Positions 11,841 to 50,184 of a stretch of 64,000 nucleotides of DNA are shown here, piece by piece. Within the stretch, counting starts at the first letter, position 1. Each line of letters opens with the position of its first letter. Origin of the DNA: Catellatospora sp. TT07R-123 (GTDB lineage Bacteria; Actinomycetota; Actinomycetes; Mycobacteriales; Micromonosporaceae); the NCBI RefSeq assembly GCF_018327705.1, contig NZ_BNEM01000001.1, forward strand, positions 3,038,001 through 3,102,000, read 5' to 3'. The notes under the pieces are model-generated. The model saw only the letters and a program-made list of their open reading frames with translations. It ran no database searches and had not been told where the DNA came from. A program made the position numbers and the translations under genes.

Positions 11841-12935
11841 GTGTCGATCCTGTGCGCCGAGGACTACCGGGCCCTGGCCCGCGCGCGCCTGCGCGGCGAC
11901 GTCTGGGACTTCCTCGACGGCGGCAGCGGCGCCGAGCTCACCGTCGACGCCAACCGGGCCGGCTTCGACCGCGCGCTGCTGCGGCCGCGCACGCTGGTCG
12001 ACGTGTCCCGGGTCGACACCACGCGCAAGCTGCTCGGCGGGGCGCTGACCGCGCCGCTGGGCGTCGCGCCGATCGCCTACCACCGGATGTTCCACCCCGA
12101 CGGCGAGACCGCGACCGTCGCGGGTGCAGGGCGGGCGGGCGCGCTCTTCGTGGCCAGCATCTTCGCCAGCCGGACGCTGGAGGAGATGGCGGCGGCCGCG
12201 ACCGGCCCGCTGTGGCTCCAGCTGTACTGGCTGCGCCACCGCCCCGCCCTGGCCGAACTGGCCCAGCGCGCCCAGCGCGCCGGCTTCCGCGCCCTGGTGC
12301 TCACCGTCGACGCGCCGCGCATCGGCAAGCGCCTGCGCGACCTGCGCAACGACTTCACGGTGGACCCCGACGTCCGCGCGGTCAACCTCGACCCCGCCCT
12401 GATGACCAGCGCGCACGAGCGCCGCGAGGGCTCCTCGTCCATCGCCGCCCACGCCGCGCTCACCTTCGACCAGACGGTCACCTGGGCCGACCTCGCCTGG
12501 CTGAAGGGCGTCACCGACCTGCCGCTGGTGCTCAAGGGCATCCTCACCGCCGAGGACGCCGAATGCGCCGTCGCGCACGGCGCCGACGCGATCATCGTGT
12601 CCAACCACGGCGGACGGCAGCTCGACGGCGCGGTCCCCGGGCTGCGCGCGCTGCCCGAGGTGGTCGCGGCGGTGGCGGGCCGCTGCCCGGTGCTGCTCGA
12701 CGGCGGCGTACGGACCGGACGCGACGTCTTCGTCGCCCTGGCCCTGGGCGCCCAGGCCGTGCTGGTCGGCCGCCCCGCGCTGTGGGCGCTCACCGCGGGC
12801 GGCGCCGACGCGGTGACCCACGTGCTGTCGCTGCTCGCCGCCGAACTGGAGCACACCATGGCGCTGACCGGGCGGCCGTCCCTGGCCGACATCGGCCGCG
12901 ACGCGGTCCTGCCCGGCGAACGCCCGGAAGTCTGA
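11841..12935 (+). CDS. hmo: 4-Hydroxymandelate oxidase (FMN-dependent alpha-hydroxy acid oxidase)
   Basis: 364 residues, FMN-dependent (S)-2-hydroxy-acid oxidase family. Expected reaction: 4-hydroxymandelate to 4-hydroxyphenylglyoxylate, the second step of 4-hydroxyphenylglycine synthesis. Seen: the start region CAEDYRALARARL, GGSGAELTVDANRAGF, FMN-binding APIAYHRMFHPDGE, and the active-site stretch SNHGGRQLDGA (catalytic His256, Arg259), then LDGGVRTGRDVFVALALGA. The GTG at 11841 is chosen over GTG 11817 because GGAGG lies 5 nt upstream of it. The next gene, an aminotransferase, would use the product. Sequence alone would also allow lactate or mandelate as substrate; the specific call rests on the hydroxymandelate synthase at 27836 and the adjacent aminotransferase. 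Confidence 0.85.
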   Translation: MSILCAEDYRALARARLRGDVWDFLDGGSGAELTVDANRAGFDRALLRPRTLVDVSRVDTTRKLLGGALTAPLGVAPIAYHRMFHPDGETATVAGAGRAGALFVASIFASRTLEEMAAAATGPLWLQLYWLRHRPALAELAQRAQRAGFRALVLTVDAPRIGKRLRDLRNDFTVDPDVRAVNLDPALMTSAHERREGSSSIAAHAALTFDQTVTWADLAWLKGVTDLPLVLKGILTAEDAECAVAHGADAIIVSNHGGRQLDGAVPGLRALPEVVAAVAGRCPVLLDGGVRTGRDVFVALALGAQAVLVGRPALWALTAGGADAVTHVLSLLAAELEHTMALTGRPSLADIGRDAVLPGERPEV

Positions 12936-12953
12936 GCGAAGGAGCAGCGAGTC

Positions 12954-14249
12954 ATGGTCAAGCTGGACAGGCGGCGCCTGCACGTGTCGGTGACCGACCC
13001 GGTCGCGGCGTCGATGAACTTCCTCAACGAGGTCGCCGGACGCTACCCCGACGCCGTCTCATTGGCCGCCGGGCGGCCGTACGAGGGGTTCTACGACACC
13101 GCCGACATCGGCCGCTACCTCGACCGGTACGTCGCGTACCTGGCCGAGCAGGGCAGCGACCCGGTCCAGATCCGCCGCGCCCTGATGCAGTACGGCCGCA
13201 CCAACGGCCAGATCCACGGGCTCATCGCGCGGATGCTCGCCACCGACGACGGCATCGACGTGCCCGCCGAGGCGGTCTCGGTCACCGCGGGCTGCCAGGA
13301 GGCCATGGTCATGGTGCTGCGGGGCCTGTGTGCGGGCCCTGACGACGTGCTGCTGGCCGCCGAACCCTGCTACGTCGGCATCACCGGCGCCGCCCGCATC
13401 CTCGGCATCGAGGTCGTGCCCGTGCCCGAGGGCCGCGGCGGGCTCGACCCGGCCCGCGTCGCCGAGACCGCCCGCGCCGTCCGCGACAGCGGCCGCACCC
13501 CACGCGCGCTGTACCTGGTGCCCGACTTCTCGAACCCGTCCGGCCTGTGCCTGGACGTGGCCGCCCGGCAGGGCCTGCTGGACGTGGCCGAGGCCGAGGA
13601 CTTCCTGATCCTCGAAGACGACCCGTACGGCCTGTTCGGCCTCGACGACCGTCCCCGGCCCAAGCTCAAGGCCCTCGACACCCGGCAGCGCGTGGTCTAC
13701 CTGGGCTCGTTCGCCAAGTCGGTCTTCCCCGGCGCCCGCATCGGCTTCCTCGTCGCCGACCAGACCGTGGTCGACGAGGCCGGGCGGACCACGCTGCTGG
13801 CCGAGGAGCTGTCCACCATCAAGAGCATGCTCACCGTGAACACCTCCCCCATCGCCCAGGCGGTGGTCGGCGGCGTCCTGGTCGAGTCCGGTTGCAGCCT
13901 GAAGGCCGCCAACGCGCAGAAGATCGCCTTCTACCGGGAGAACCTGCGCGGGCTGGTCGACGCGCTCGACCGGCACCTGCCCGCGCCGTGGCGCGACGAG
14001 GTGGGAGTGCGCTGGAACCAGCCCGAGGGCGGGTTCTTCGCCGTGGTCGACGTGCCGTTCACCGCCGACGAGCGGCTGCTGGAGGTGTCCGCCTCCCGGT
14101 ACGGGGTGCTGTGGACGCCGATGAGCTTCTTCTACACCGACGGCGGCACCAGGTCGCTGCGCCTGTCGTGCAGCTACCTGGACGCCGCCACCGTCGAGGA
14201 GGGCGTACGCCGCCTCGCCGCGATGATCCGGGACAACGTCGCGGCCTAG
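12954..14249 (+). CDS. hpgT: 4-Hydroxyphenylglycine aminotransferase (class I/II, PLP)
   Basis: 431 residues, fold-type I PLP aminotransferase of the MocR/2-aminoadipate group without a DNA-binding domain. Expected reaction: 4-hydroxyphenylglyoxylate + amino donor to L-4-hydroxyphenylglycine. Seen: substrate/cofactor segments AGRPYEGFYD, GCQEAMVMVLRGL, YLVPDFSNPSG, the Asp-Tyr pair LEDDPYGLF, and the PLP lysine in YLGSFAKSVFPGARIGF (Lys about 255). Length matches known HpgT/PglE enzymes. It lies 18 bp after hmo with AAGGAG upstream, so they form an operon. In other Hpg pathways the same enzyme uses tyrosine as donor, regenerating 4-hydroxyphenylpyruvate; that is plausible here but not visible. 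Substrate assignment rests on context. Confidence 0.82.
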   Translation: MVKLDRRRLHVSVTDPVAASMNFLNEVAGRYPDAVSLAAGRPYEGFYDTADIGRYLDRYVAYLAEQGSDPVQIRRALMQYGRTNGQIHGLIARMLATDDGIDVPAEAVSVTAGCQEAMVMVLRGLCAGPDDVLLAAEPCYVGITGAARILGIEVVPVPEGRGGLDPARVAETARAVRDSGRTPRALYLVPDFSNPSGLCLDVAARQGLLDVAEAEDFLILEDDPYGLFGLDDRPRPKLKALDTRQRVVYLGSFAKSVFPGARIGFLVADQTVVDEAGRTTLLAEELSTIKSMLTVNTSPIAQAVVGGVLVESGCSLKAANAQKIAFYRENLRGLVDALDRHLPAPWRDEVGVRWNQPEGGFFAVVDVPFTADERLLEVSASRYGVLWTPMSFFYTDGGTRSLRLSCSYLDAATVEEGVRRLAAMIRDNVAA

Positions 14250-15181: not shown

Positions 15182-15199
15182 GGTGACAGGGTCGGAAGC

Positions 15200-15850: not shown

Positions 15851-15854
15851 CGAC

Positions 15855-16598: not shown

Positions 16599-17531
16599 TC
16601 AGGTGGTGAACCAGGTGCGGAGGTGGGCGGCCGCCTCCTCCTGTGCCCGGCGGCCGTCCGCGAGGTCCCCCGCCATGCAGAAGAACCCGTGGATCATGCC
16701 GTCGTAGCGGGTGAGCGTCACCGGGACGCCGGAGTCGGACAGCGTGCGGGCGTACTGCTCGGCCTGGTCGCGCAGGGGGTCGTACTCGGCGGTGATGACC
16801 AGGGCGGGCGGCAGACCGATGTGGTCTGCGGCCAGCAGCGGCGAGGCGAGCGGGTCGCCGCCGTCGGCGGGCGAGGTCAGGTAGTGGTCCCAGTACCAGG
16901 TGACCGAGGTGGCGTTGAACAGGTACGGGTCGGTGCCCTCGCGCAGCGACCGGGTGCTCGACCGGTAGTCGGTGTTCGGGTACACCAGCAGCTGCCCGAC
17001 CAGGTCCGGGCCGTGCTCGCGGGCCAGCAGGGTCACCGACGCGGCCAGGTTGCCGCCGGCGCTGTCGCCGCCGACCGCGATGCGGGCCGGGTCGGCGCCG
17101 AGCTCGGCCGCGTTGGCGGCGACCCAGGCGGTGACGGCGTGGCAGTCGTGCACCGCGGCGGGGAACTTGTGCTCCGGCGCCAGCCGGTATCCGGCCGCCA
17201 CGACCAGGCAGCCCGCGGCGTTGGCCAGCGTCCGGCACACCGCGTCGGCGGTGTCGATGGTGCCCAGCGTCCAGCCGCCGCCGAAGAAGTACACCAGCAC
17301 GGGCAGCGGCTCGCCGAGCACCGGCCGGAAGATCCGGATCGGCAGCGGGCCGCCCGGACCGTCGATGTCGCGGTCGACGACCTCGGCGACGGGCTCGGGC
17401 GTGCCGCCCGCGGCCTGGATCGAGGCCAGGTCGGCGGCGCGGGCGTCCTCGACCGACAGCATGTAGAGCTGCGGGGCACCGGAGGCTTCGCGTCGGGCGC
17501 GCATCTCCTGGACCTGGGGGTGCAGGGGCAC
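16599..17531 (-). CDS. Alpha/beta hydrolase, hormone-sensitive lipase family
   Basis: 310-residue cytosolic esterase. The oxyanion-hole motif appears as GGGWTLG (in YFFGGGWTLG), the nucleophile as GGDSAGGNLAA (Ser about 157), with a C-terminal His in DGMIHGFFC and the acid in EYDPLRDQ. The GTG start at 17531 has AGGAGAG upstream. It lies 30 bp after the ATP-grasp gene on the same strand, so they are probably one transcript. It may deacylate an intermediate or protecting group; no substrate can be read from sequence. Confidence 0.9.
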   Translation of the reverse strand: MPLHPQVQEMRARREASGAPQLYMLSVEDARAADLASIQAAGGTPEPVAEVVDRDIDGPGGPLPIRIFRPVLGEPLPVLVYFFGGGWTLGTIDTADAVCRTLANAAGCLVVAAGYRLAPEHKFPAAVHDCHAVTAWVAANAAELGADPARIAVGGDSAGGNLAASVTLLAREHGPDLVGQLLVYPNTDYRSSTRSLREGTDPYLFNATSVTWYWDHYLTSPADGGDPLASPLLAADHIGLPPALVITAEYDPLRDQAEQYARTLSDSGVPVTLTRYDGMIHGFFCMAGDLADGRRAQEEAAAHLRTWFTT

Positions 17532-17561: not shown

Positions 17562-18860
17562 CTAGTCGATCGTCCCGGCTTCGTACTGGAAGCCCGCGTT
17601 GCGGGGGTCGGCGAACAGCTCGCGCAGGGTCGGGTTGAGCGCCACCACGTCGATCCGGTCGGTGAACCAGGCGGCCAGCTCGGTGAGGCGGCGCTCGGCG
17701 GTGGCGGCGTCGGCGGTGTGCACGGTGACCTCGCCCATCCGGTAGAACGTGTTCGCGGCCGCGGCCTCGATCCGCTTGCCGACCGGCACGTAGAGGCGGG
17801 TGCGGGCGACGTCGGGCTGGGCCGCGATCTCGGCGGCGGTCGGGAAGCCGACGATGACGCCCGGCTTGAGCGGCAGGAACGTGGAGGCCACGACGCCCTC
17901 GCGGATGCGGGTCGGGATCTCCGGCAGCGGCTGGAGCAGCGCCAGCGGCCCGTATTCGCCGAGGTCGACGCCGTACTTGTAGCGGATCTGGTCGCGGATC
18001 GGGCCGCCGCCGCGGCGGGCGCCGCACTCGCTGAACACGACCCGGCCGTTCTCGGGCTGGTGGAACATCTCCAGGTGGAAGATGCCGTCGACCAGCCCCA
18101 GGGCCGCGATCGACTGCTCGATCAGGGGCCGGGCCAGGTCGAACGCCCACTTGTCGGCGGTCGGGTCGAAGCTGAACGTCTGCACGGGCGAGCGCTGCTG
18201 CACCGCGCTCAGGCACGGCTGGGCGTAGCGGCCCAGGGCCAGGAAGCGGATGTGGCCGTCGGACATGATGCCGTCGGCGAACCACTCGTCCCCGGGGACG
18301 AACTCCTCCAGCAGGAAGTTGCGCGCGCTGACCTTGCCGGCGCGGCACTGGGCGCTGATGCGGACCAGGTCGGCCTGGTTCTCGACCACGTACGTCGACT
18401 GGGTGGCCATGCCGGCGACGGGTTTGAGCACGCCGCGGGCGAAGGGCATGGTGAAGCCGTCGGGCAGCTCGCGGATGTCGTCGATGACGGCGTACCCGGT
18501 GACGGGCAGTCCGGCTTCGGCGATGCGCCGCTTCTGCAGCGACTTGTCGCGGAACAGTGCCACGGTCGGCGCGGGGACGGCGTTGGCTCCGAGCAGGGCG
18601 CCGAGCGCGGCGGCCGTCATCAGCTGCGGGTCGTCGAAGGCGTACACGGCGTCGAAGCTGCCCTCGCCGAACCCGGCGCGGTACAGGCCGTTGAGCGCCG
18701 AGTCGACGTTCTTCTGGTCGTCGACGAAGACCGTCCGCACCCGGTCGGGTATCGGGTCGCCCTGGTCCTTGTTGAGCGCTCCCATCAGGACCGTCACGTC
18801 GACCGTCGCAGGCAGACCCTCCAGCGCGGTCGGGTCGACGCCGATCATCAGCAGGCGCAT
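17562..18860 (-). CDS. ATP-grasp domain ligase
   Basis: 432 residues. ATP-grasp enzymes activate a carboxylate as acyl phosphate and join it to an amine or thiol. Seen: N-terminal Rossmann-like preATP domain (LLMIGVDPTALEGL), central lysine region RGVLKPVAGMATQSTYVV, the ATP lid FLLEEFVPGDEWFADGIM, and the metal/nucleotide residues in HLEMFHQPENGRVVFSECGARRGGG. Overall like the BacD/TabS/DdaF amino-acid ligase branch. The ATG at 18858-18860 has GGAGG upstream. In a cluster that makes Hpg but has no NRPS it is the best candidate for amide formation on Hpg (inference). Carboxylation of a small acid is the alternative. Confidence 0.85.
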   Translation of the reverse strand: MRLLMIGVDPTALEGLPATVDVTVLMGALNKDQGDPIPDRVRTVFVDDQKNVDSALNGLYRAGFGEGSFDAVYAFDDPQLMTAAALGALLGANAVPAPTVALFRDKSLQKRRIAEAGLPVTGYAVIDDIRELPDGFTMPFARGVLKPVAGMATQSTYVVENQADLVRISAQCRAGKVSARNFLLEEFVPGDEWFADGIMSDGHIRFLALGRYAQPCLSAVQQRSPVQTFSFDPTADKWAFDLARPLIEQSIAALGLVDGIFHLEMFHQPENGRVVFSECGARRGGGPIRDQIRYKYGVDLGEYGPLALLQPLPEIPTRIREGVVASTFLPLKPGVIVGFPTAAEIAAQPDVARTRLYVPVGKRIEAAAANTFYRMGEVTVHTADAATAERRLTELAAWFTDRIDVVALNPTLRELFADPRNAGFQYEAGTID

Positions 18861-19135: not shown

Positions 19136-20725
19136 GTGGGCCTCTCGTCAGCGCCGACCCCGTATCGGCGCCGTGTCGCCATACCCGGACTCGTCGTCGC
19201 CGAGGCGATCTCGATCATCGGCGGCCGGATGTCGTTCCTGGCCATCCCCTGGCTGGTGCTGGTCACCACCGGCAGCCCGATCAAGGTCGGCACCGTGGCG
19301 GGCGCCGAGGCGCTCGCGTACGTCCTCAGTGGCGTGCTCGCCGCGCCACTACAGGACCGGATCGGCTCCCGGCCGACGTCGATCCTGGCCGACCTGGCCA
19401 GCGCCGCCGCCGTCGGCGCGACCGCGCTGGCCGGCCAGCTCGGCTTCCCCGTGCTGATCGCCCTGGTCACCGCCACCGGCGCGCTGCGCGCCCAGGCGGA
19501 CCGGTCCAAGAACAACGTGCTCAAACCACTGATGGACGCCGCGGGCACCGACTTCACCCGGGTCTCGTCGGTCCGCGAGGGGGTGCTGCGCACCTCGGGC
19601 CTGATCGGCGCGTCGGTCGGCGGGGTCGCGATCGCGGCGCTCGGCGCGCGCGGGGCGATCTGGCTCGACGCGGCAAGTTTCCTGGTCGCGGCGCTGATGG
19701 TGTGGTTCTTCGTGCCCGATCCGGCCGCGCTGCCGGGCGCCAAGGAGGAACAGCCGCAGGCCGAGCCGTACTTCGCGGCGCTCAAGGGCGGGTTCGACTA
19801 CTACCGCTCCGAGCCGCTGCTGCGCGCGGTCACCAGCATGTTGTTCTTCACGAACCTGTTCAACCAGGCCAGCGCGGTGGTCTTCGTGCCGATGTGGGTG
19901 CTGACGGTGCTGCACTCGCCGGTGGCGCTGGGGTCGGTGGCGGCGGCGTACGCCATCGGGATGATCGTGGGAAGTGTCGTGTTCGCGACGCTCGCGCCGT
20001 ACCTGCCGCGCTACCGGGCGGTGGTGTTCGGCTACATGGTCGGCGGGGCGCCCCGGTTCCTGATCTTCGCGATCACGGACAACCTGACCGTGATCCTGAT
20101 CGTGACGTTCATCAGCGGCATCGTCATGTGCTCGCTCAATCCGACCATCGGCGCCGTCATCTACCAGCGCGTTCCCGGCCCGATGCTGGCCCGCGCGGGC
20201 GGGATCATCATCGCCATCTCGTACGCCGGGATCCCGCTGGGCGGCCTGGCCGGCGGCCTGATGGTGCAGGAGCTCGGCCTGATCAACGGCGTGCTGCTCA
20301 CCTCGGTGCTGTATTTCGCGGTGTCGCTGGCGCCGATCGTGCGGCACCGGGTCTGGCGCCAGCTCAACGACGCCGGGGCGCGCGGCCCGAAAACCGACGG
20401 CAGCGCGCTGCCCTGGGGGTATGCGCTGGGCCCGGCCGCCTTCGGCCCCCGGGTCACCCTGAGCTACGTCGACGGCCGGTGGTCGGTGCAGGCCCGCCAG
20501 GGCGGCCGGCGGCTGCTGCGCCCGCGCCCGGTCGCGCCGAAGGCGGCGATGCACGCGCTGGCGCAGCTCGACGTGGCGCCGGTGCACGAGGCCGTACGCG
20601 AGCTGGTGAACCGCGACCATGCCGCCGCCGAGCGCAGGGCTCTTCGCAAGCGGGCCGAACTCGATCGGATGGAATCGACGATGATGGAAATAGAGACGAC
20701 CTTGCGGGCCCCGCATCTGCCATAG
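19136..20725 (+). CDS. MFS exporter with C-terminal coiled-coil extension
   Basis: 529 residues, about 12 membrane helices (DHA3-like, EntS-type drug/metabolite exporter): VAEAISIIGGRMSFLAIPWLVLV at the N-terminus and conserved loop PLQDRIGSRP. The last ~110 residues leave the membrane and contain TLSYVDGRWSVQARQGGRRLL followed by a charged helix (NRDHAAAERRALRKRAELDRM). The same extension is found on the MFS protein at 36102, so the two are paralogues. The GTG start has GGAGGAG 6 nt upstream. Probable product exporter or resistance pump of the cluster. Confidence 0.88.
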   Translation: MGLSSAPTPYRRRVAIPGLVVAEAISIIGGRMSFLAIPWLVLVTTGSPIKVGTVAGAEALAYVLSGVLAAPLQDRIGSRPTSILADLASAAAVGATALAGQLGFPVLIALVTATGALRAQADRSKNNVLKPLMDAAGTDFTRVSSVREGVLRTSGLIGASVGGVAIAALGARGAIWLDAASFLVAALMVWFFVPDPAALPGAKEEQPQAEPYFAALKGGFDYYRSEPLLRAVTSMLFFTNLFNQASAVVFVPMWVLTVLHSPVALGSVAAAYAIGMIVGSVVFATLAPYLPRYRAVVFGYMVGGAPRFLIFAITDNLTVILIVTFISGIVMCSLNPTIGAVIYQRVPGPMLARAGGIIIAISYAGIPLGGLAGGLMVQELGLINGVLLTSVLYFAVSLAPIVRHRVWRQLNDAGARGPKTDGSALPWGYALGPAAFGPRVTLSYVDGRWSVQARQGGRRLLRPRPVAPKAAMHALAQLDVAPVHEAVRELVNRDHAAAERRALRKRAELDRMESTMMEIETTLRAPHLP

Positions 20726-22285: not shown

Positions 22286-22292
22286 CCTGCCC

Positions 22293-22312
22293 CGAGCGCG
22301 CGTCAGCGCTCG
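22293..22312 (+). terminator. Intra-operon hairpin
   Basis: CGAGCGC (22293-22299) and GCGCTCG (22306-22312) with a 6-nt loop, in the 82-bp gap between the ligase and the first carrier protein. It may act as an attenuator or a processing site that changes the ligase:carrier ratio. Confidence 0.4.
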
Positions 22313-22367
22313 ACATCACCGCCAGGACGAGTCCTCGCCGGGCCGTCCACAAGGGAAGGAAGATCCG

Positions 22368-22625
22368 ATGAGTGCCGAGGTACGCCAGTTCATCATCGCC
22401 GCGATCGCCGAGATGAACTACCCGGTCGACGACGTCGACGCCGACACCCCGCTCGGCTCCGCCGGGGTCGACCTGGAGTCGCTGGCAGTCGCCGAGCTCT
22501 CGGTGCGCGTCGAGGACACGTACGGCGTGAAGTTCAGCGACGAGGAGGCCGAGCAGATGGCGGCGATGACCGTCGGCGAGTTCGCCGACGCCATCATCGA
22601 GCGCGGCAACCTGGCGAGCGCGTAA
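22368..22625 (+). CDS. Acyl carrier protein (1)
   Basis: 85 residues, four-helix carrier protein. The phosphopantetheine Ser is Ser38 in GVDLESLAVAELSVRVEDTYG; the acidic helix 2 and the length are typical of type II ACPs. Good ribosome binding site (GGAAGGA). It overlaps the second carrier protein gene by TAATG. Carries acyl or aminoacyl intermediates for the ketosynthases downstream. Confidence 0.92.
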   Translation: MSAEVRQFIIAAIAEMNYPVDDVDADTPLGSAGVDLESLAVAELSVRVEDTYGVKFSDEEAEQMAAMTVGEFADAIIERGNLASA

Positions 22626-28945: not shown

Positions 28946-28986
28946 GCCGGCCCACCCCCTCCACCCCGACCGCCGAGGAGCACATC

Positions 28987-29889: not shown

Positions 29890-29925
29890 TCGAACACAAC
29901 CCTCCACATATCCAGGGAGAAAGCA

Positions 29926-30714: not shown

Positions 30715-30733
30715 GGTCGTACCCCCCTTTTTC

Positions 30734-30777: not shown

Positions 30778-30795
30778 TACCGCACCGGAGCGAAC

Positions 30796-39868: not shown

Positions 39869-41164
39869 ATGAACAGCCCCCGGCAACGCCAACTCCTGAT
39901 GGCCCTGGTCACGATCGTGGCAGTGGGCTCGACCCTGCTGGTCGCGACCGCCAACAGCAAGGCCGTGGCACCCGAACCGGAGCGGTGGACCGGTTCGTGG
40001 TCGGCCGCGCTGACCGCCGCGGGGGCGGGCAAGTCGAAGGACGGCTTCGCCGACCAGACGATCCGGATGTTCGTGCACACCTCCGTCGGCGGCACCGCCG
40101 CGCGCATCCGGCTGTCCAACCGGTTCGGCACCGCGCCGCTGACCATCGGGCACGCCACCGTCGCGCTGCCCTGGCCCGAGGCGGGCCCCGGCGACATCAA
40201 GCCCGGCTCGGCGATCGACGCCACGTTCAGCGGGCAGCGTTCCATCACCATCCCGGCCGGCGGCAGCGCGGTCAGCGACCCGGTGCACATGGAGGTGCCG
40301 AAGTCGCAGGACGTCGCGGTCAGCCTGTACGTCCCGGTCGCGTCCGGTCCGGCCACCTGGCACGTGTACGCCCGCGAGACGTCCTTCATCGGCCAGGGCG
40401 ACCACGCCAACGACGCCAGCGGCGCCAAGCTGCCCGAGACCCGCAACAACTGGTACTACCTGACCGGTCTCGACGTGCTCAACCGCTCCGGCCAGGGCTC
40501 GATCGTGGTGCTGGGCGACTCCATCACCGACGGGTTCCGGTCGACCGTCAACGCCGACCACCGCTGGACCGACTACCTCGGGTGGCGGCTCAACAAGGAG
40601 GCGCCGGGCGGCAAGGCCCCCGGCGTCCTGAATTCGGGCCTGGCGGGCAACCGGCTCACCCTCAACGGCAGCGACGGCGGCTTCAACGAGCTCGGCATGA
40701 ACGGCTCGGCGCGGTTCCACTTCGACGTGCTCGGGCAGACCGGGGTCCGCACCGTGATCCTGGAGCTGGGCATCAACGACGTCTGGCTCAGCCAGGACAA
40801 CGCCGACAACATCATCGCCCGCCTCCAGGCGATGTCCCAGCTCGCGCACCAGTCCGGCCTGAAGATCATCATGTGTACGCTGAGCCCCTGGAACGCGTTC
40901 GAGTCGGCGCCCGGCGTGGTGGCCTACACGCCGACGCTGGACTCGGTGCGGCTGACGGTGAACTCCTACATCCGCACCACCACCGACTTCGACGCGGTCA
41001 TCGACTTCGACGCGGTGCTGCGCAACCCGGCCGACCCGTCGAAGCTGCGCCCCGAGTGGGACAGCGGCGACCACATCCACCCCAACGACAAGGGCAACGA
41101 GGCGATGGCCAACGCCGTCCCGCTCGACCTGCTCCTGCTCGACGAGGACGAGGACCTGCGCTGA
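39869..41164 (+). CDS. Secreted SGNH/GDSL hydrolase (carbohydrate-esterase-like)
   Basis: 431 residues. Signal peptide or N-terminal anchor (LLMALVTIVAVGSTLLVATANS, about 9-32). An N-terminal beta domain (WTGSWSAALTAAG ... RMFVHTSVGGTAARIRLSNRFG) precedes the catalytic SGNH domain: Ser218 in VVLGDSITDG, Gly in NSGLAGNRL, Asn in LGINDVWL, Asp/His in GDHIHPNDKGN. This two-domain layout is common in actinobacterial secreted esterases. One nucleotide separates it from the P450 gene (TGACATG), an unusual coupling of a secreted hydrolase with a monooxygenase. It may unmask a secreted, acylated product (inference). Confidence 0.88.
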   Translation: MNSPRQRQLLMALVTIVAVGSTLLVATANSKAVAPEPERWTGSWSAALTAAGAGKSKDGFADQTIRMFVHTSVGGTAARIRLSNRFGTAPLTIGHATVALPWPEAGPGDIKPGSAIDATFSGQRSITIPAGGSAVSDPVHMEVPKSQDVAVSLYVPVASGPATWHVYARETSFIGQGDHANDASGAKLPETRNNWYYLTGLDVLNRSGQGSIVVLGDSITDGFRSTVNADHRWTDYLGWRLNKEAPGGKAPGVLNSGLAGNRLTLNGSDGGFNELGMNGSARFHFDVLGQTGVRTVILELGINDVWLSQDNADNIIARLQAMSQLAHQSGLKIIMCTLSPWNAFESAPGVVAYTPTLDSVRLTVNSYIRTTTDFDAVIDFDAVLRNPADPSKLRPEWDSGDHIHPNDKGNEAMANAVPLDLLLLDEDEDLR

Positions 41165-41165
41165 C

Positions 41166-42392
41166 ATGGCCGCCGAGGTCTCGCTGGCATCGCTGCACAC
41201 CGACGAGGTGCGGCGCGATCCGTACCCGTTCTACGCCGCACTGCACGCCCGCGGCCCGGTCTGCCGGGTCGCGCCCGGCGACCGGTACGCCTTCGTCGTG
41301 CACGGATACGACGCGTCGGCGCACGTGCTGCGGGACTCGGCCACGTTCAAGGTGATGGACGAGACCCTCATGGGCACGCCGCCGACCTGGGCGGACGACC
41401 GGGCGCTGGCCGTCTTCATGAACTCGGTGTTCTTCACCAACGCGCCCCGGCACACCCGGATGCGCAAGATGTTCAACCAGGCGTTCACCCCGCGCCGGAT
41501 CAACGCGCTGGAGCCGGCGATCGACCGGCTCACCGCGGACCTGCTCGACCACCTGGCCGCGCAGGCGGCCGGGGGCAGCAAGGTGGATTTCATGGCGGAG
41601 TTCGCGTTCCCGCTGCCCGCCAACGTGCTCGGGGAGCTGCTCGGGGTGCCCGAGGAGCGGCGCGCCTGGTACCGGCCCCGGGCGATGGCCCTGGGCGCGA
41701 TCCTGGAGCTCGGCGGCAGCACCCCGGCCAACGTCGCCGCCGCCAACACCGCCTCGGAGGAGATCACCGCGTACTTCGGGGAGCTGGCCGCGGCGCGGCG
41801 GGCCGACCCGCGCGACGACATGATCACCGCGCTGGTGCAGGCCCTGGAGTCCGACGGCGACCAGCTCAGCGAGCACGAACTGCTGGCCAACCTGATCGTG
41901 GTGTTCAACGCCGGGTTCGTCACCACCACGCATCTGCTGGGCAACGGCCTGACCCTGCTGCTCGACCGCCCCGACGAGCTGGCCCGCCTGCGCGCCGACC
42001 CGGCCCTGGCCCCCCAGTACGTCGAGGAGATCCTGCGCTACGAGGTGCCCACGCACTTCTCGGTGCGATACACCGCCGCCGACACCGAGGTGGCGGGCGT
42101 GGAGATCCCGAAGGGAAGCTGGGTGCTGGTGCTGCTTGCCGCCGCCAACCGCGACCCGGCGCACTACGCGGACCCGGACGTCTTCGACCCGACGCGCACC
42201 GAGGCCTCCACGCTCAGCTTCGGCGGCGGCGCCCACTACTGCCTGGGCGCGGCGCTGGCCCGGCTGGAGGGGCAGCGCGGGCTCACCATGCTGCTCGACC
42301 GGTTCGCCGACATCAGCCTCGCCGAACCCCCCGGCACCCCGCGCCAGCTGATGCTGCGCGGCCACGACCAGCTCTGGGTCACCCTCGCCTGA
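41166..42392 (+). CDS. Cytochrome P450 with atypical I-helix (paralogue 1)
   Basis: 408 residues. Haem loop LSFGGGAHYCLGAALARLEG with Cys359; ExxR in VEEILRYEVP. The I-helix reads FNAGFVTTTHLLGNGL (Ala249-Thr254): the acid of the usual AGx(D/E)T(T/S) is Val252. The P450 at 46168 has the same change, and the two are alike throughout (AEFAFPLP.NV.GELLGVPE, ELGG.T). Such P450s may rely on a substrate group or water for proton delivery, or catalyse something other than simple hydroxylation. Coupled to the secreted SGNH hydrolase upstream and followed by the palindromic repeat copy 2. No ferredoxin gene was found. Confidence 0.92.
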   Translation: MAAEVSLASLHTDEVRRDPYPFYAALHARGPVCRVAPGDRYAFVVHGYDASAHVLRDSATFKVMDETLMGTPPTWADDRALAVFMNSVFFTNAPRHTRMRKMFNQAFTPRRINALEPAIDRLTADLLDHLAAQAAGGSKVDFMAEFAFPLPANVLGELLGVPEERRAWYRPRAMALGAILELGGSTPANVAAANTASEEITAYFGELAAARRADPRDDMITALVQALESDGDQLSEHELLANLIVVFNAGFVTTTHLLGNGLTLLLDRPDELARLRADPALAPQYVEEILRYEVPTHFSVRYTAADTEVAGVEIPKGSWVLVLLAAANRDPAHYADPDVFDPTRTEASTLSFGGGAHYCLGAALARLEGQRGLTMLLDRFADISLAEPPGTPRQLMLRGHDQLWVTLA

Positions 42393-43259: not shown

Positions 43260-43994
43260 TCAGGCTTGGGAGGCGGCCAGGGCGGCGCCGACGATGCCGG
43301 CGTCGTTGAGCAGGGCGGCCGGGACCAGCGGGGTGCGTACGTCGATGTGCGGGAGGAACTTCTCCGCCTTCTTGCTCACCCCGCCGCCGATGATCATCAG
43401 ATCGGGGTTGAGCAGGCGCTCCAGCTCGCGCAGGTAGTCCTGCACGTTCTTGGCCCACTCCTTCCAGCCCAGGTCCTCGACCTCGCGGGCCTGCGCCGAG
43501 GCGTGCAGCTCCGCGTCCCTGCCGTGCAGCTGGATGTGGCCGAGCTCGGTGTTGGGCACCAGCCGGTCGTCGATGAAGACGGCGCTGCCGATGCCGGTGC
43601 CGAAGGTGAGCATGATGGTGACGCCCTTGCGGCCCTTGCCCGCGCCGTACGTCATCTCGGCGATCCCGGCCGCGTCGGCGTCGTTGAGCACGACCACGGG
43701 CAGGCCGAGGGCCTCGGTGAACAGGTCGCGGGCGGGCGCGCCGAGCCACGAGTGGTCGACGTTGGCCGCCGTGCGCGTGACGCCGTTCTGGACCACGCCG
43801 GGGAAGGTGACCCCGACCCGCTCCACGCCGGAGAACCGCCCGGCGACCTCCGCCACCGTGGCCACGACGGCGGTCACGTCCGAGGGCTGCGGGGTCTCCA
43901 ACCGCACCCGCTCCTCGGCGAAGCCGCCCTGGTCGAGGTCGACCGGCGCGCCCTTGATGCCGGAGCCGCCGATGTCGATGCCGAGGATCGCCAT
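43260..43994 (-). CDS. ppgK: Polyphosphate glucokinase (ROK family)
   Basis: 244 residues. Phosphorylates glucose using polyphosphate (and ATP). ROK/actin-fold motifs: phosphate-1 loop [18 protein letters not shown], catalytic Asp in [13 protein letters not shown], phosphate-2 [13 protein letters not shown], and the short C-terminus with IIGGGVSKK. It lacks the zinc Cys cluster of ROK repressors, has no DNA-binding domain, and its length matches actinobacterial PpgK. The ATG is preceded by TAGACT 6 nt away, so the transcript is probably leaderless. Housekeeping; interrupts the two tailoring-gene sets. Confidence 0.93.
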
Positions 43995-44003
43995 GCGGCC
44001 AGT

Positions 44004-45386
44004 CTATGCGGCCGCCGCACGCCGTACGGCCTCGATCGAGGCGGCGACGTCGGCGTCGTCGGTGGACCAGTTGCTGACCGACACGCGCAGCACGTCACAG
44101 CCCTGCCAGTGCGAACCGGACATCCAGGCGGTGCCGTCGGCGAGCAGCCGCCCGGTCACCGCGCGGGTGCGCTCGTCGCTGCCGAAGCTCACGCAGACCT
44201 GGGTGAACACGACGTCGTTGCAGACGCGGGCACCCTCGATCGCGCCGAGTCCGGCGGCCAGGGCACGGGCGTTGCGGGCGAGCCGGTCCACCAGGTCGGC
44301 GACGCCGTCGCGGCCGAGCGAGCGCAGCGCGGCCCATACGGGCACGCCCCGGGCGCGCCGGGAGAGCTCGGGGACGCGCTCGTGCGGGTCACCGGGGCCC
44401 TCGGTGCCCGCGTGGACCAGGTAGCTGGCCCGGGTGCCGAAGGCGGCGCGCAGCGCGGCGGGCCGGGCCACGACGGCGATGCCGCAGTCGTACGGCACGT
44501 TGAGGGTCTTGTGCGCGTCGGTGGCCCAGGAGTCGGCCAGGTGGTGGCCGTCGAGCAGGTGCCGGGTCGACGGGGCGGCGGCCGCCCACAGTCCGAACGC
44601 GCCGTCGACGTGCACCCAGGCACCGTGGCGGCGGGCGAGTTCGCAGGCGGCGCCGATCGGGTCGTACGCCCCGGAGTGGACGTTGCCCGCCTGGAGGCAG
44701 ACGATCGTCGGCCCGGACCCGGCGGCCAGTTCGCGTTCGAGGGCGTCCAGGCGCAGCCGTCCCTGCTCGTCGGCCTCGACCGGGGTCGGGGCGCCCAGGC
44801 CCAGGTAGCGCAGGGCGAGGTCGACGGTGGCGTGGCGCTCGGCGCCGACCAGCACCCGGACGCGGGGCGCACCGGTGAGGCCGTCGCGGTCGAGGTCCCA
44901 GCCCGCGTCGGTGAGCACCTGCTGGCGCCCGGCGGCCAGGCCGGTGAAGTTGGCCATGGTGCCGCCGGTGACGAAGCCGACGTCGGACCCGGCGGGCAGG
45001 CCGAGCAGGTCGAGCAGCCAGTCCCCCGCCACCTCCTCGGCCGCGGCGGTGCCGGGGGTGGCGTACCGCATGCCGCTGTTCTGGTCCCAGGTGCTGACCA
45101 GCCAGTCGGCGCCGAGCGCGGCGGGCAGCGTGCCGCCGATGACCCAGCCGTAGAAGCGGCCGGACGGCATCGTCATCAGGCCGGGCTCGATCTCGCGGGC
45201 CAGCAGGTCGACGACCTCGGCCGGGTCGGTGGGGGCGGCGGGCAGCGGGCCGCCGAGGCGCTCGCGCAGCTCGTCGGCGTCGGCGCGGGGCGGGATGGGC
45301 CGGTCGGGCACGGCCGCGAGCCAGTCGTGGGCGTGGGCGGCGGCGCGGGCCAGTGCGGCCTGGTACTGCTCCGGGCGAGCGGTCAT
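44004..45386 (-). CDS. PLP-dependent decarboxylase (group II, aromatic amino acid type)
   Basis: 460 residues, fold-type I. Seen: DQNSGMRYATPGTAAAEEVAGDWLLDLLGLP, substrate/cofactor FVTGGTMANFTGL, the Asp and PLP Lys in VDGAFGLWAAA and ATDAHKTLNVPYDCG. Family members decarboxylate L-DOPA, tryptophan, tyrosine, glutamate or diaminobutyrate. It could act on an aromatic amino acid of the pathway (Hpg would give 4-hydroxybenzylamine) but a general role is equally possible. It ends 10 bp before ppgK on the same strand. Confidence 0.88.
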   Translation of the reverse strand: MTARPEQYQAALARAAAHAHDWLAAVPDRPIPPRADADELRERLGGPLPAAPTDPAEVVDLLAREIEPGLMTMPSGRFYGWVIGGTLPAALGADWLVSTWDQNSGMRYATPGTAAAEEVAGDWLLDLLGLPAGSDVGFVTGGTMANFTGLAAGRQQVLTDAGWDLDRDGLTGAPRVRVLVGAERHATVDLALRYLGLGAPTPVEADEQGRLRLDALERELAAGSGPTIVCLQAGNVHSGAYDPIGAACELARRHGAWVHVDGAFGLWAAAAPSTRHLLDGHHLADSWATDAHKTLNVPYDCGIAVVARPAALRAAFGTRASYLVHAGTEGPGDPHERVPELSRRARGVPVWAALRSLGRDGVADLVDRLARNARALAAGLGAIEGARVCNDVVFTQVCVSFGSDERTRAVTGRLLADGTAWMSGSHWQGCDVLRVSVSNWSTDDADVAASIEAVRRAAAA

Positions 45387-46167: not shown

Positions 46168-47403
46168 ATGACCGGCGGCATCTCGTTGCAGCCCCTGCGC
46201 TCGGCGCAGGGGCGGGCAAACCCCTACCCCTTCTACGCGCACCTGCACACCCTCGGCGGCCTGGCCCTGGTCGGCGGCGAGGACGAGCGCTACGACGTCG
46301 TGGTGCACGGCTACGACGCGGTGCAGCAGGTGCTGCGCTCGCCGGACTTCCTGACCGTGGACGCGCGCCACCTCGACCGGAGCATGCCCGAGTGGCGCGC
46401 GCACCCGTCGCTGACCACGCTGCGCGCCTCGATGTTCTTCACCAACGCGCCCGACCACACCCGGGTGCGCCGCCGGTTCAGCCGCGCCTTCACCGCGCGC
46501 AGCCTGCACAGCATGGGCCCGGCCATCACCCGGATGACCGACGACTTGATCGACCGGATGCTGGCCCGCAGCGCGGACGGCACGGCGGTGGACTTCATGG
46601 CCGAGTTCGCGTTCCCGCTGCCCAGCAACGTCGTCGGGGAGCTGCTCGGGGTCCCCGAGCTGGACCGGTCCTGGTTCCGCCAGCGGGTGCTGGACTTCGG
46701 CGCCGTGCTGGAGCTGGGCGGGCGCACCGAGGAGAACCTGCGCCGGGCCGACACCGCCGCGGGCGAGCTGATGGCGTACTTCGCGGACCTGGTCGCCGCG
46801 CGCCGCGCCGAACCCCGCGAGGACCTGGTCAGCGCGCTGATCGCCGACGAGGACGCGGACCTGCTCAACGAGACCGAGCTGCTGGCCAACCTGATCACGG
46901 TGTTCAACGCCGGCTTCGTCACCACCACCCACCTGTTCGGCAACGGCCTGGTCCTGCTGCTCCAGCGGCCGGACCTGCTGGCCGCGCTGCGCGACGACCC
47001 GGCCCTGGCCGCCGGATACGTCGAGGAGATCCTGCGCTTCGAGCCGCCGGTGCACTTCGTGGTGCGCTGGGCCGCGCGCGAGGCGGAGATCGAGGGGGTG
47101 CGCATCCCCGCGGACGCGATGATGCTGGTGCTGCTCGGGGCCGCCAACCGCGACCCGCGCCGCTACCCCGACCCGGACGCCTTCGACCCGTCCCGCATCG
47201 ACAGCCAGCCCGCCAGCTTCGGCGCGGGCGCCCACTTCTGCCTGGGCGCGGCGCTGAGCCGCATCGAGGGGCAACTGGTGTTCCCGCACCTGCTGCGGCG
47301 ACTGCCGGACCTGGCCCTGGCCGCCCCGCCCGGCGACCGGCGCGCGCTGATGCTGCTGGGCTACGACACCCTGCCCGTGACCGTGGGCAGCGGCAAGGAC
47401 TGA
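46168..47403 (+). CDS. Cytochrome P450 with atypical I-helix (paralogue 2)
   Basis: 411 residues. Haem loop ASFGAGAHFCLGAALSRIEG with Cys358; ExxR in VEEILRFEPP. I-helix FNAGFVTTTHLFGNGL with Val251 at the acid position, as in the paralogue at 41166. The stop overlaps the start of the glycosyltransferase gene, so oxidation and glycosylation are coupled: the P450 may create the hydroxyl that is then glycosylated. The upstream 78 bp are AT-rich and probably hold the promoter. Confidence 0.92.
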   Translation: MTGGISLQPLRSAQGRANPYPFYAHLHTLGGLALVGGEDERYDVVVHGYDAVQQVLRSPDFLTVDARHLDRSMPEWRAHPSLTTLRASMFFTNAPDHTRVRRRFSRAFTARSLHSMGPAITRMTDDLIDRMLARSADGTAVDFMAEFAFPLPSNVVGELLGVPELDRSWFRQRVLDFGAVLELGGRTEENLRRADTAAGELMAYFADLVAARRAEPREDLVSALIADEDADLLNETELLANLITVFNAGFVTTTHLFGNGLVLLLQRPDLLAALRDDPALAAGYVEEILRFEPPVHFVVRWAAREAEIEGVRIPADAMMLVLLGAANRDPRRYPDPDAFDPSRIDSQPASFGAGAHFCLGAALSRIEGQLVFPHLLRRLPDLALAAPPGDRRALMLLGYDTLPVTVGSGKD

Positions 47404-47405
47404 TG

Positions 47406-48596
47406 ATGACCTGGCACATCGCGTTCCTCAACGCACCCACCATCGGCGAGGTGTTCCCGACGCTGGCCATCGTGGCGGAGCTGGTGCGACGCGGGCACCG
47501 GGTCAGCTACGCCACCGGGCAGGCGCGGGCCGAGGTGGTCACCGCGATGGGTGCCACCGTGGTGCCGTACGAGTCGAGCCTGCCCGACGAGTCGGACCCG
47601 GGGCTGCTGCCGCCGCGGCCGGTCGACTACTTCAACACGATGCGCGGCGGCTTCCTGCGCGAGGCGCGGACCACCTTCCCGCAGTTCGAATGCCTCTGCC
47701 TGGCCGACCGGCCGGACCTGCTGGTCTACCACACGCAGGCGTTCGCGGCCCGCATGCTGGCGGTCAAGCACCGCATCCCGGCGGTGCAGCTGTGGACGTT
47801 CATGGCGGCCAACCCGCAGTGGTCCATCGGCAAGCACCTGGGCCTGGCCGCCGCCGGGCAGGCCGGGCTGGACGAGCACCAGCGGCGCCTGGACGCCCTC
47901 GCGACCGAGCAGGGCTGCGACCCCGAAGAGGTCCGCGCGTACGAGCCGCGCCGGCACCTGATGCTGTACCCGCGCCTGATGCAGTTCCGGCACCTGAACT
48001 TCGACGGGCGCTACCGCTTCGTCGGGCCGTGCGTCGGGGAGCGGCCGTTCCAGCAGCCGTGGCAGCCGCCGGAGCCGGACCGCCCGGTGGCGCTGGTGTC
48101 GCTGGGCACCGTCTACAACCGGCTGCCGGGCTTCTACCGCACCTGCGTCGACGCGTTCGCGGGCACGGACTGGCAGGTGGTGCTGTCGCTGGGGTCGCGC
48201 ACCGACCCGGCCGAGGTCGGCCCGGTGCCGCCCAACGTGCACGTGGCGGAGAGCGTGCCGCAGTTGCAGGTGCTGCGGCACGCGCGGGTCTTCGTCACGC
48301 ACGCCGGCATGGGCGGGTCCCTGGAGGCGCTGCGGGCGGGCGTGCCGATGCTGACCCTGCCGCAGACGCCGGAGCAGCAGGTCAACGCGCTGCGGCTGGC
48401 GGAGCTGGGCGCAGCCCGGCCGCTGGACCCGGCCCTGCTCACCCCGGCCTACCTGCGCGGGGCGGCCGACGCGGTCGCGGGCGACGCGGCGATGCGGCAC
48501 AAGCTGCACCGGCTCAGCCACGAGGTGCGCGCCTGCGGCGGGGCGACCCTGGCCGCGGACCTGATCGAGGCGGAGCTGCCGGTCCCGGTCGCTTGA
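47406..48596 (+). CDS. Macrolide-type (UGT/MGT, GT1) glycosyltransferase
   Basis: 396 residues, GT-B fold. N-terminal acceptor domain begins WHIAFLNAPTIGEVFPTLAIVAELVRRGHRVSYATG. The C-terminal nucleotide-sugar domain has RPVALVSLGTVYN and the donor signature VFVTHAGMGGSLEALRAGVPMLTLPQTPEQQVNALRLAELGAA. Family members attach a sugar to a hydroxyl of an antibiotic, often for self-protection. No sugar biosynthesis genes are nearby, so a common UDP-sugar is the likely donor. Start ATG 47406 has AAGGA at 7 nt; ATG 47403 is an alternative. Confidence 0.92.
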   Translation: MTWHIAFLNAPTIGEVFPTLAIVAELVRRGHRVSYATGQARAEVVTAMGATVVPYESSLPDESDPGLLPPRPVDYFNTMRGGFLREARTTFPQFECLCLADRPDLLVYHTQAFAARMLAVKHRIPAVQLWTFMAANPQWSIGKHLGLAAAGQAGLDEHQRRLDALATEQGCDPEEVRAYEPRRHLMLYPRLMQFRHLNFDGRYRFVGPCVGERPFQQPWQPPEPDRPVALVSLGTVYNRLPGFYRTCVDAFAGTDWQVVLSLGSRTDPAEVGPVPPNVHVAESVPQLQVLRHARVFVTHAGMGGSLEALRAGVPMLTLPQTPEQQVNALRLAELGAARPLDPALLTPAYLRGAADAVAGDAAMRHKLHRLSHEVRACGGATLAADLIEAELPVPVA

Positions 48597-48598
48597 CT

Positions 48599-48613: not shown

Positions 48614-48642
48614 TTTTACCGGCCGGCGACAGGGCCGCCGGG

Positions 48643-50184
48643 TCAGCGCGCGGCGGTCGACGGCGCCCGCCGCGCGCGCAACGCCTTCTTGTCGACCTTG
48701 CCGACCTCGGTGAGCGGCAGGTCGTCCAGGAACTCCACCACGTGCGGCGCCCACAGCTCGTTCAGCTCGGCCACCGCCCACTCGCGCAGTTCGGCCGGGG
48801 TGATCCCGGCGCCGGGGGCGGGCACGACGAAGGCGTACACCGCCTCGCCCATCCGCTCGTGCGGCACGCCGATCACGGCCGCGGCGCGCACCTGCGGGTG
48901 GCGGCTCAGCGTGTCCTCGACCGTCCGGGAGTACACGTTCGTCGAGGTCTCCCCCGTGACGATCATGTCTTTGGCCCGGTCGACGAGGTACAGGTAGCCG
49001 TCGGTGTCGAAGCGGCCCAGGTCGCCGGTGCGCAGCCAGCCGTCGACGATGGTCTGCCGGGTCAGCTCGGGCTGGCCCCAGTATCCGGCCGTCATCAGCT
49101 GCGCCGACACCCACACCTCGCCGACGGTGTCGGTGTCGACGGGGCGGCCCCGGTCGTCCCGCACCTCGACCCGCACCCCCGGATAGGGCCGCCCGCAGGA
49201 GGCCAGCCGGTCCGGGCGCGCCGGATCGGCCGTCACGTTGGGGTACGCGGTGATGAAGGTGGCCTCGCTCATGCCGTACACCGGGCGCACCACCGGGCCG
49301 AACCGCTCGATCGCCTGCGCCAGCCGCACCGGCGAGACCGCGCTGCCCGCGCACGACAGCGTGACCAGGCTGCTGGTGTCGGCGGTGGCCAGGCGAGGGT
49401 CGTCGAGCACCCGCGCCAGCATCGGCGGCGGCAGGATCGCACTGCTGATCCGCTCCCGCTCGACGGTGTCCAGGAACGAGCCGGGCTCGAACCGGTCGTG
49501 CAGCACCAGCAGCCCGCCGGTCCACAGCGTGATCATCGCGGCGGCCTGCTGGCTGGAGTGCCAGAACCCGCCCACGGCCAGGTGGCGCAGCGCCGGGCCG
49601 CCCGCGGCCTGGTAGCCGTCGGCGGCGGCGCGCACCGCCTGGAAGAAGGCGTGCCGGTGGTGCACCAGCTTCGGGCGGCCGGTGGTGCCGCCGGTCTGGA
49701 ACAGCGACTGCGGCTCCCGCCCCGGCGGCGGCACGGTCGGCGGGGCGCCCGCCGGCGGCGCGGCGGTCAGGTCCAGCCCGACACCCGCGCCGAAGCTGAA
49801 GATGTGCAGGTCACCGGCGTGCTCGGCCAGTTCCTCGCCCAGCGCCGCGTGGGTGCGGGGGTCGTAGACGAACGCGTCGACGTCGGCCAGGTTCAGGTAG
49901 TCGGCGCACAGGCGCGGCGGGGCGTTCGGCGCGATCCACACCGAGCGTGCTCCCAGCAGGTGCAGCGCGAGCTGGGCCTGCACCGACTCCGGCGGGTTGC
50001 CCGCCAGGACCGCCACCGCCGTGGACGAGCGCACACCGTGATCGTACAGCAGCGCGGCCATGGCGCGGGTCCCGGCGGCGAGCTCGGCGTACGTCAGCCG
50101 CCGCCCGCCGTGGACGACCGCCTCGGCCTCGCCGTATCCGTCGAAGACCACCAGTGCCTGGGCGGCATAGTTGTCCAGCTCCAC
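48643..50184 (-). CDS. Acyl-CoA ligase-like adenylate-forming enzyme (paralogue of 37976)
   Basis: 513 residues. P-loop LFQTGGTTGRPKLVHHRH, A5 YGMSEATF, A7 WLRTGDLGRFDTDGYLYLVDRAKDMIVTG, A10 Lys in EVGKVDKKALRARR. Closely parallels the ligase at 37976 along its whole length. The GTG at 50184 (start VELDNYAAQAL) has GGGAGG upstream and matches the paralogue's N-terminus; in-frame codons up to 50331 are disregarded. Convergent with the P450-glycosyltransferase pair. Confidence 0.88.
   Translation of the reverse strand: MELDNYAAQALVVFDGYGEAEAVVHGGRRLTYAELAAGTRAMAALLYDHGVRSSTAVAVLAGNPPESVQAQLALHLLGARSVWIAPNAPPRLCADYLNLADVDAFVYDPRTHAALGEELAEHAGDLHIFSFGAGVGLDLTAAPPAGAPPTVPPPGREPQSLFQTGGTTGRPKLVHHRHAFFQAVRAAADGYQAAGGPALRHLAVGGFWHSSQQAAAMITLWTGGLLVLHDRFEPGSFLDTVERERISSAILPPPMLARVLDDPRLATADTSSLVTLSCAGSAVSPVRLAQAIERFGPVVRPVYGMSEATFITAYPNVTADPARPDRLASCGRPYPGVRVEVRDDRGRPVDTDTVGEVWVSAQLMTAGYWGQPELTRQTIVDGWLRTGDLGRFDTDGYLYLVDRAKDMIVTGETSTNVYSRTVEDTLSRHPQVRAAAVIGVPHERMGEAVYAFVVPAPGAGITPAELREWAVAELNELWAPHVVEFLDDLPLTEVGKVDKKALRARRAPSTAAR

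Follow-up and report, generated by a model that had tools for sequence, protein, structure and literature searches.

A conserved actinomycete gene cluster in Catellatospora sp. TT07R-123 that groups predicted 4-hydroxyphenylglycine supply genes with stand-alone ketosynthase, carrier protein and ligase genes

4-Hydroxyphenylglycine (Hpg) is best known as a building block of nonribosomal peptide synthetases (NRPSs), and its usual supply set in the NRPS glycopeptide and lipodepsipeptide systems consists of a 4-hydroxymandelate synthase (HmaS), a 4-hydroxymandelate oxidase (Hmo) and an aminotransferase (HpgT). The cluster described here carries the same three genes and occupies positions 11841-50184 of a 64,000-nucleotide stretch (hereafter, the window) from the soil bacterium Catellatospora sp. 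TT07R-123 (GCF_018327705.1, NZ_BNEM01000001.1, 3,038,001-3,102,000, forward strand). In contrast to the NRPS systems, no NRPS was found in the 64-kb window in Pfam and NCBIfam scans, and the Hpg genes are grouped with stand-alone ketosynthase (KS), acyl carrier protein (ACP) and ligase genes.

Cispentacin synthesis, in which AmcF and AmcG elongate and cyclise 2-oxoglutaryl-ACP, is the nearest known mechanism (PMC10698177). The KS-CYF synthases of cispentacin (amc) and coronafacic acid (cfa) resemble the window locus in having an adjacent KS, a short Cys-less partner of KS fold, a discrete ACP and a ligase, whereas the window KS (KSf) forms its own clade and lacks one catalytic His, the cut-offs of both AmcF and AmcG are missed, no clear orthologue of AmcH, the 2-oxoglutaryl-ACP ligase, is present and the Hpg genes and a second KS (KS2) are added. 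Retention of the Cys with loss of one catalytic His is shared by KSf with the TAS1 ketosynthase (6kog), which has a Cys-His-Asn triad and a cyclising role. The same likeness holds for the KS0 domains of trans-acyltransferase polyketide synthases (PKSs), which lack the catalytic His and do not elongate (PMC9582728). Unlike both, KSf stands alone as a type II KS, is partnered by an AmcG-like protein and has lost a different His in different lineages. Full-text literature searches found no published description of this gene set, the cispentacin paper alone bearing on the KS pair. The view of the first-pass annotation that the combination matches no known cluster therefore stands for the literature as searched and gives way for the KS pair, which is nearest to the known KS-CYF type II synthases (PMC10698177).

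The reading favoured here, for and against which the evidence seems about evenly balanced, is that of a conserved actinomycete cluster directing the synthesis of a small 4-hydroxyphenyl product that probably contains an amide. Gene models of the window proteins were scanned with Pfam and NCBIfam, and every element named in the first-pass annotation was recovered. Related loci were collected by a contig scan with an alignment of one ligase (LigB) as the sole query, which gave 123 relatives, and the best 80 loci were used for all 80-locus counts; the core-gene counts per locus are from tblastn, and a few deviate from gene-call counts. The central genes are as follows, those from LigA to E1 beta forming a plus-strand block (20885-33757) in the order given.

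11841-12935, plus strand: Hmo, 4-hydroxymandelate oxidase-like flavin mononucleotide enzyme (Pfam FMN_dh, 6e-125)
12954-14249, plus strand: HpgT-type class I/II aminotransferase (Pfam Aminotran_1_2; named from context)
17562-18860, minus strand: ATP-grasp ligase, L-amino-acid-ligase-like, candidate amide-bond former (Pfam ATP-grasp_4 above cut-off; 8 of 80 loci)
20885-22285, plus strand: LigA, adenylate-forming ligase adjoining the carrier proteins (Pfam AMP-binding; 62 of 80)
22368-22625, plus strand: ACP1 (Pfam PP-binding; 67 of 80)
22625-22867, plus strand: ACP2, small carrier protein (IDSLE motif, without a Pfam match; 58 of 80)
22860-24011, plus strand: KSf, ketosynthase with Cys141-His275-Gln312 (Pfam ketoacyl-synt; 60 of 80)
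24008-24622, plus strand: CYF, AmcG-like Cys-less truncated KS-fold partner, 204 aa (AmcG profile match, fold of KS and chain length factor (CLF); 63 of 80)
24622-26235, plus strand: LigB, ligase closest to the AvaA6 diazotase model (NF058622, 500.2 bits against a cut-off of 975)
26235-27500, plus strand: KS2, FabF-like ketosynthase with intact Cys-His-His (Pfam/NCBIfam, active-site columns; 71 of 80)
27836-28945, plus strand: HmaS, predicted 4-hydroxymandelate synthase (TIGR01263, 2r5v, motif; 70 of 80)
28942-29889, plus strand: PhyH-type dioxygenase (Pfam PhyH, 1.6e-22; 70 of 80)
29926-30714, plus strand: DUF3050, haem-oxygenase-like family (Pfam DUF3050, 1.6e-95; Haem_oxygenas_2 exactly at cut-off; 54 of 80)
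30796-31806, plus strand: O-methyltransferase, lineage-specific (Pfam Methyltransf_2; 8 of 80)
31803-32780, plus strand: thiamine diphosphate (ThDP) E1 alpha (Pfam E1_dh; 70 of 80)
32780-33757, plus strand: ThDP E1 beta (Pfam Transket_pyr, Transketolase_C; 68 of 80)

The combination of Hpg-supply genes with stand-alone enzymes is a conserved actinomycete cluster, as can be seen from the core-gene counts, and the originally noted Hpg pathway with stand-alone enzymes and no NRPS in the window is thereby extended to a set with HmaS in 70 of the 80 loci. The loci represent 14 named genera: Catellatospora, Longispora, Micromonospora, Allorhizocola, Dactylosporangium, Kitasatospora, Salinispora, Catelliglobosispora, Streptomyces, Phytohabitans, Actinocrinis, Actinospica, Kribbella and Saccharothrix. 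The Hpg supply genes here travel with stand-alone enzymes, HmaS being found in the block in 13 of the named genera; the exception, the Actinocrinis locus, is cut short. Hmo and HpgT lie inside the 10-kb locus flanks in 12 and 19 of the 80 loci, respectively; since they are often located outside these flanks, whole genomes were searched for both. The 46 genomes of this linkage sample were chosen from the 80 loci, not blind: the ten HmaS-less loci and the seven first-copy Catellatospora loci are all missing from it, as are others, for the most part on short contigs. Within 30 kb of the best LigB on the same contig, HpgT was found in 44, Hmo in 45 and both in 44 of the 46 genomes, at distances of 3-24 kb from LigB. 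Both genes accompany two of the ten further LigB copies in the same genomes within 30 kb and neither accompanies the other eight, which argues against chance linkage. A search of 296 genomes with CYF only gave ten with a match, the own genome included. HmaS and Hmo adjoin all three non-self matches with at least 48% identity (G249, G095 and G196), and HpgT was seen in two of these, the third match lying at the border of the fetched stretch; HmaS was not found in the stretches fetched around the more distant matches of G199 and G252.

HmaS matches the model of the 4-hydroxyphenylpyruvate dioxygenase (HPPD) family, TIGR01263, with about 350.5-350.9 bits, above the curated cut-off of 277. Among solved structures it is closest to 2r5v (319.8 bits; runner-up 296.6), with which it has the stretch FGSSNIKALY in common, while the HPPD 1t47 has Phe in place of the Ile. 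Replacement of this HPPD Phe near the C-terminus by Ile is a feature of 4-hydroxymandelate synthases, and the motif in 69 gene models of relatives carries Ile in 49 and Val in one, 19 being unmatched. As the same genome also holds a separate and stronger match to the HPPD model elsewhere (430.8 against 350.5 bits), the proximity to 2r5v and the shared stretch support prediction of the window gene as a 4-hydroxymandelate synthase rather than an HPPD. Among solved structures, Hmo matches lactate oxidase first (316.4 bits) and the 4-hydroxymandelate oxidase 5zzp second (311.8 bits). No HpgT-specific model was matched by the aminotransferase, the libraries scanned holding no such model.

The active-site columns of the ketosynthases were compared with reference to C165, H306, K336 and H341 of KS2, excluding KSf rows shorter than 300 aa and KS2 rows shorter than 380 aa. 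One of the two catalytic His residues is lost in all 57 KSf rows. The pattern CHKQ is present in 19 rows (the window, seven from Catellatospora, four each from Dactylosporangium and Kitasatospora and one each from Longispora, Allorhizocola and Streptomyces), CNKH in 37 (Micromonospora, two Salinispora and three further genomes) and TNKH in a single long-branch row. KS2 is CHKH in 69 of 69 rows, as are ten of ten aromatic KS sequences (10 of 32 used), nine of ten AmcF sequences (the tenth has a gap) and the G199 and G252 ketosynthases closest to KSf; raw motifs and the window codons agree with the KSf columns. Loss of a His in two lineage-specific ways across KSf is a new observation and constitutes a natural experiment, in which the nucleophile is kept and different histidines are lost in two lineages. 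Of the two ketosynthases previously annotated as catalytic, KS2 retains an intact Cys-His-His and KSf is without one of the catalytic histidines. Since this loss is also found in KS0 domains (PMC9582728), KSf is inferred to transfer or cyclise rather than elongate.

The Cys-less ketosynthase homologue of the first-pass annotation is real; it is not of an unmatched kind, being AmcG-like with a KS-CYF type II synthase as its nearest relative (PMC10698177). CYF lacks the active-site Cys and its predicted fold (predicted local distance difference test, pLDDT, 87.2) is that of a truncated KS/CLF, with a bacterial ketosynthase chain of 203 residues and the aryl-polyene and ishigamide synthase CLFs as the best PDB matches of the model. 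Comparison of the CYF family profile with AmcG by hhalign gave a probability of 97 (E 9.9e-11, 161 columns), against 3.3 for aromatic CLFs, 56 for KS2 and 22 for KSf. Scores of about 30-43 bits on the AmcG model are common among long frames elsewhere, so the link to AmcG is based on the profile match, the length and the position, from which CYF is predicted to be a distant relative of AmcG, the partner of the cispentacin ketosynthase. KSf scores 163.3 bits on the AmcF model, below the curated cut-off of 325. In a tree of random subsamples, with long-branch warnings and with AmcF rows limited to those above 330 aa (7), KSf forms its own clade, separate from AmcF and KS2 and closest to the two ketosynthases of G199 and G252. 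Eleven AmcG regions were fetched; one locus (L167) was excluded from the AmcF/AmcG sets owing to a merged gene model. As the AmcF and AmcG cut-offs are missed and the Cys-His-His feature is absent, KSf-CYF is classed by sequence as a relative, not a member, of the cispentacin-type KS-CYF synthases. In one genus (g24), AmcG was found above its curated cut-off in 17 of 392 genomes.

Lineages differ in which candidate amide-forming gene they carry. A 452-aa protein is encoded in 42 of the 80 loci, the window-type ATP-grasp in eight and condensation, KASIII or u257 genes in 26, with none of these in four, and two kinds of amide-type gene never occur together (0 of 80). The window ATP-grasp matches the solved L-amino acid ligase 4wd3 (E 4.2e-16) and scores 26.3 bits on LAL_C2, under the cut-off of 29.4. 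The 452-aa protein has a predicted glutathione-synthetase ATP-grasp fold by structure search of its predicted model; its assignment as a condensation domain was rejected, profile comparison giving a probability of 0.2 and the fold search ATP-grasp. Mutual exclusion and lineage swapping of these genes suggest that the product contains an amide and that the lineages form it by different chemistry, and indicate where the product may vary between lineages.

In the favoured pathway, the enzyme families suggest that HmaS, Hmo and the aminotransferase would convert 4-hydroxyphenylpyruvate via 4-hydroxymandelate and 4-hydroxyphenylglyoxylate to L-Hpg. LigA and/or LigB may load acids on the discrete carriers ACP1 and ACP2, and KS2, the sole ketosynthase here with an intact Cys-His-His, would perform a few decarboxylative C2 condensations. 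KSf-CYF, in which the Cys nucleophile is kept, may move or cyclise the carrier-bound chain without elongation, and an alpha-keto acid would be the substrate of the E1 pair. Amide formation with an amino acid, either Hpg or its partner, would fall to a replaceable enzyme: putatively the L-amino-acid-ligase-type ATP-grasp here, the glutathione-synthetase-fold ATP-grasp in Micromonospora and Salinispora and, in Dactylosporangium, Kitasatospora and others, a stand-alone condensation domain. The suggestion in the first-pass annotation that an aryl-glycine or aryl-glyoxylate unit is built into an acyl product stays a hypothesis. Tailoring is attributed tentatively to PhyH, DUF3050, the P450s, the O-methyltransferase and GT1, and export to the MFS proteins. 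A further and rather unlikely proposal is that KSf-CYF is fully non-elongating and that lineages which lost the second His (to Gln) or the first (to Asn) converged on cyclising or transferring a carrier-bound Hpg-derived chain, for example by closure of a 4-hydroxyphenyl tetramate or a ring like it, with the amide made by the ligase of each lineage. If true, a non-elongating KSf-CYF would show type II KS pairs put to a new use, and the loci would represent NRPS-free Hpg natural products of a class that is as yet uncharacterised and is widespread in the Micromonosporaceae. The cluster family is a large target for metabolomics. The other features of the cluster include the following.

16599-17531, minus strand: alpha/beta hydrolase, LipP1-like (Pfam Abhydrolase_3; NCBIfam LipP1 above cut-off)
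19136-20725, plus strand: MFS exporter 1 (Pfam MFS_1)
35411-36112, minus strand: GDSL hydrolase (Pfam; 46 of 80 loci)
36102-37976, minus strand: MFS exporter 2 (Pfam MFS_1)
37976-39541, minus strand: LigC, FadD-like ligase (Pfam AMP-binding; homologue in G095 and G196)
39869-41164, plus strand: second GDSL hydrolase (Pfam; homologue in G095 and G196)
41166-42392, plus strand: P450 a (Pfam p450; P450 of 44-45% identity in G095 and G196)
46168-47403, plus strand: P450 b (Pfam p450)
47406-48596, plus strand: GT1, macrolide-type glycosyltransferase (TIGR01426, 344.6 bits, above the cut-off of 260)
48643-50184, minus strand: LigD, FadD-like ligase (NCBIfam; GK motif)

Three of the four AMP-binding ligases were recognised by Pfam and the fourth by NCBIfam, and the C-terminal GK motif is present in all four (LigA-LigD). 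A homologue of the alpha/beta hydrolase adjoins Hmo and/or HpgT in G249, G095 and G196. Genes for a polyphosphate glucokinase and a pyridoxal phosphate decarboxylase (43260-45386, minus strand) are located between the two P450 genes.

Several observations weigh against a product made by these steps. The ATP-grasp assignment of the 452-aa protein is drawn from a predicted fold with a pLDDT of 79.6 (five models, 79.6 to 62.6), and its sequence match to ATP-grasp is weak (E 0.024). The CYF profile also matches aromatic KS (probability 94 over 89 columns), and CYF scores 40.4 bits on the NCBIfam AmcG model, below the curated cut-off of 80. An invariant His of KSf, two positions upstream of the second-His column (HGQ or HGH), might compensate for the loss. 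Seven HmaS loci without KSf and CYF by gene calls, some of them cut at the locus end, have condensation, KASIII or u257 genes in their place; KSf-CYF could therefore be dispensable. DUF3050 is missing in 26 of the 80 loci, ten of which are also without HmaS, and the LigB contig lacks HpgT in two of the 46 genomes (L106, with Hmo linked, and L087, with neither). The Catellatospora genome itself has a second LigB (64%) with E1 alpha and beta and without HmaS beside an NRPS region (G000:C2:1118348-1135405, L040-L041), together with condensation-like proteins, KASIII, carrier proteins, a glycosyltransferase and a methyltransferase; the substrates of LigB and E1 therefore need not be derived from Hpg.

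Among the alternatives, the one that survives best, though unlikely, follows the logic of cispentacin and coronatine, whereby KSf-CYF would build a cyclic acid on a non-aromatic starter, 2-oxoglutarate for instance, and the only part of Hpg would be that of the amine partner in amide ligation. The AmcF-AmcG precedent, the AmcG-like nature of CYF and the amide-type gene in 76 of the 80 loci are all consistent with it. However, KSf lies outside the AmcF clade and does not retain the Cys-His-His of AmcF, and for the ligases of only two of the 11 AmcG regions does LigA rank in the top two of the window matches (24-25%, 34-38 bits), no better than LigC or LigD. Counterparts of AmcC, AmcD and AmcE were not recognised in the window Pfam scans, none of which was a search aimed at them.

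A genuine diazotase role of LigB, with an N-N bond compound (diazo or diazeniumdiolate) as the product and DUF3050 as the N-oxidising partner, is distinctly improbable. The best NCBIfam model for LigB is indeed the AvaA6 diazotase, the next among the models listed scoring 160 bits, but its score is about half the curated cut-off, and, in contrast to the AvaA6/CreM-type systems, no arylamine pathway was recognised in general scans of the window. DUF3050 is the family of MgoB (PMC3298696), the operon of which is required for the diazeniumdiolate leudiazen (PMC8473136). Nevertheless, an mgoB mutant still produced mangotoxin, its authors advising caution about that mutant (PMC3298696), and 16 of the loci with HmaS have no DUF3050. 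Neither an AurF-type N-oxygenase nor an NRPS of the kind accompanying MgoB was recognised in the window, nor were nitrite-forming genes in scans not aimed at them.

The absence of an adenylation-condensation megasynthase, as first annotated, agrees with the window scans. Elsewhere in the genome there are 41 Condensation matches, none of them on contig C1 past 1.82 Mb, the window being at 3.04-3.10 Mb. In the flanks of 20 kb on each side, the seven large gene models scanned, out of 36, included no NRPS or PKS, the proteins being of restriction, primase, tRNA-synthetase, dehydrogenase and carbohydrate-binding types; an NRPS adjoining the window, which the first-pass annotation had considered, was thus not found in the contig scan and these models. 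That Hpg is destined for an NRPS encoded at another site of the genome and that the carrier and KS genes are an unrelated neighbouring cluster is highly improbable, since, the 41 Condensation matches notwithstanding, HmaS is inside the KS/E1 operon in a position kept across genera, Hmo and HpgT are jointly linked to LigB as described above, and the Hpg signature was seen in none of 19 adenylation (A) domain sites of the fetched NRPS stretches, in a rough motif scan that misses domains and is weak evidence.

Related clusters in other genomes carry free-standing condensation domains, or condensation-thiolation (C-T) and condensation-adenylation-thiolation (C-A-T) proteins. In Saccharothrix, a C-A-T protein (L118:11642-14878) adjoins LigB and HpgT, and its A domain, judged by eye, is without the C-terminal catalytic Lys; its relatives in L120 and L122 are without an A domain, which suggests loading in trans. 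The proposal of this A domain as Hpg-loading was dropped on these grounds, and no specificity was drawn from it.

Upstream of LigA in one scanned locus (L071, 226-5470) and similar loci are genes for a biotin carboxylase, a cyclase, a cupin, a KS and a CLF, the KS/CLF family being present in 35 of the 80 loci. Owing to these companions, the upstream KS/CLF genes of Micromonospora and Salinispora resemble an aromatic type II PKS, as judged from the one locus scanned, and were left out of the cluster. The condensation-type clusters (L079:12989-14998 and similar) contain a KASIII-like family (25 loci), a carrier protein (21 loci) and a 257-aa family (26 loci) which has no Pfam match, is thiolase-like by eye and forms with the KASIII-like protein a second set of a KS plus a short partner.

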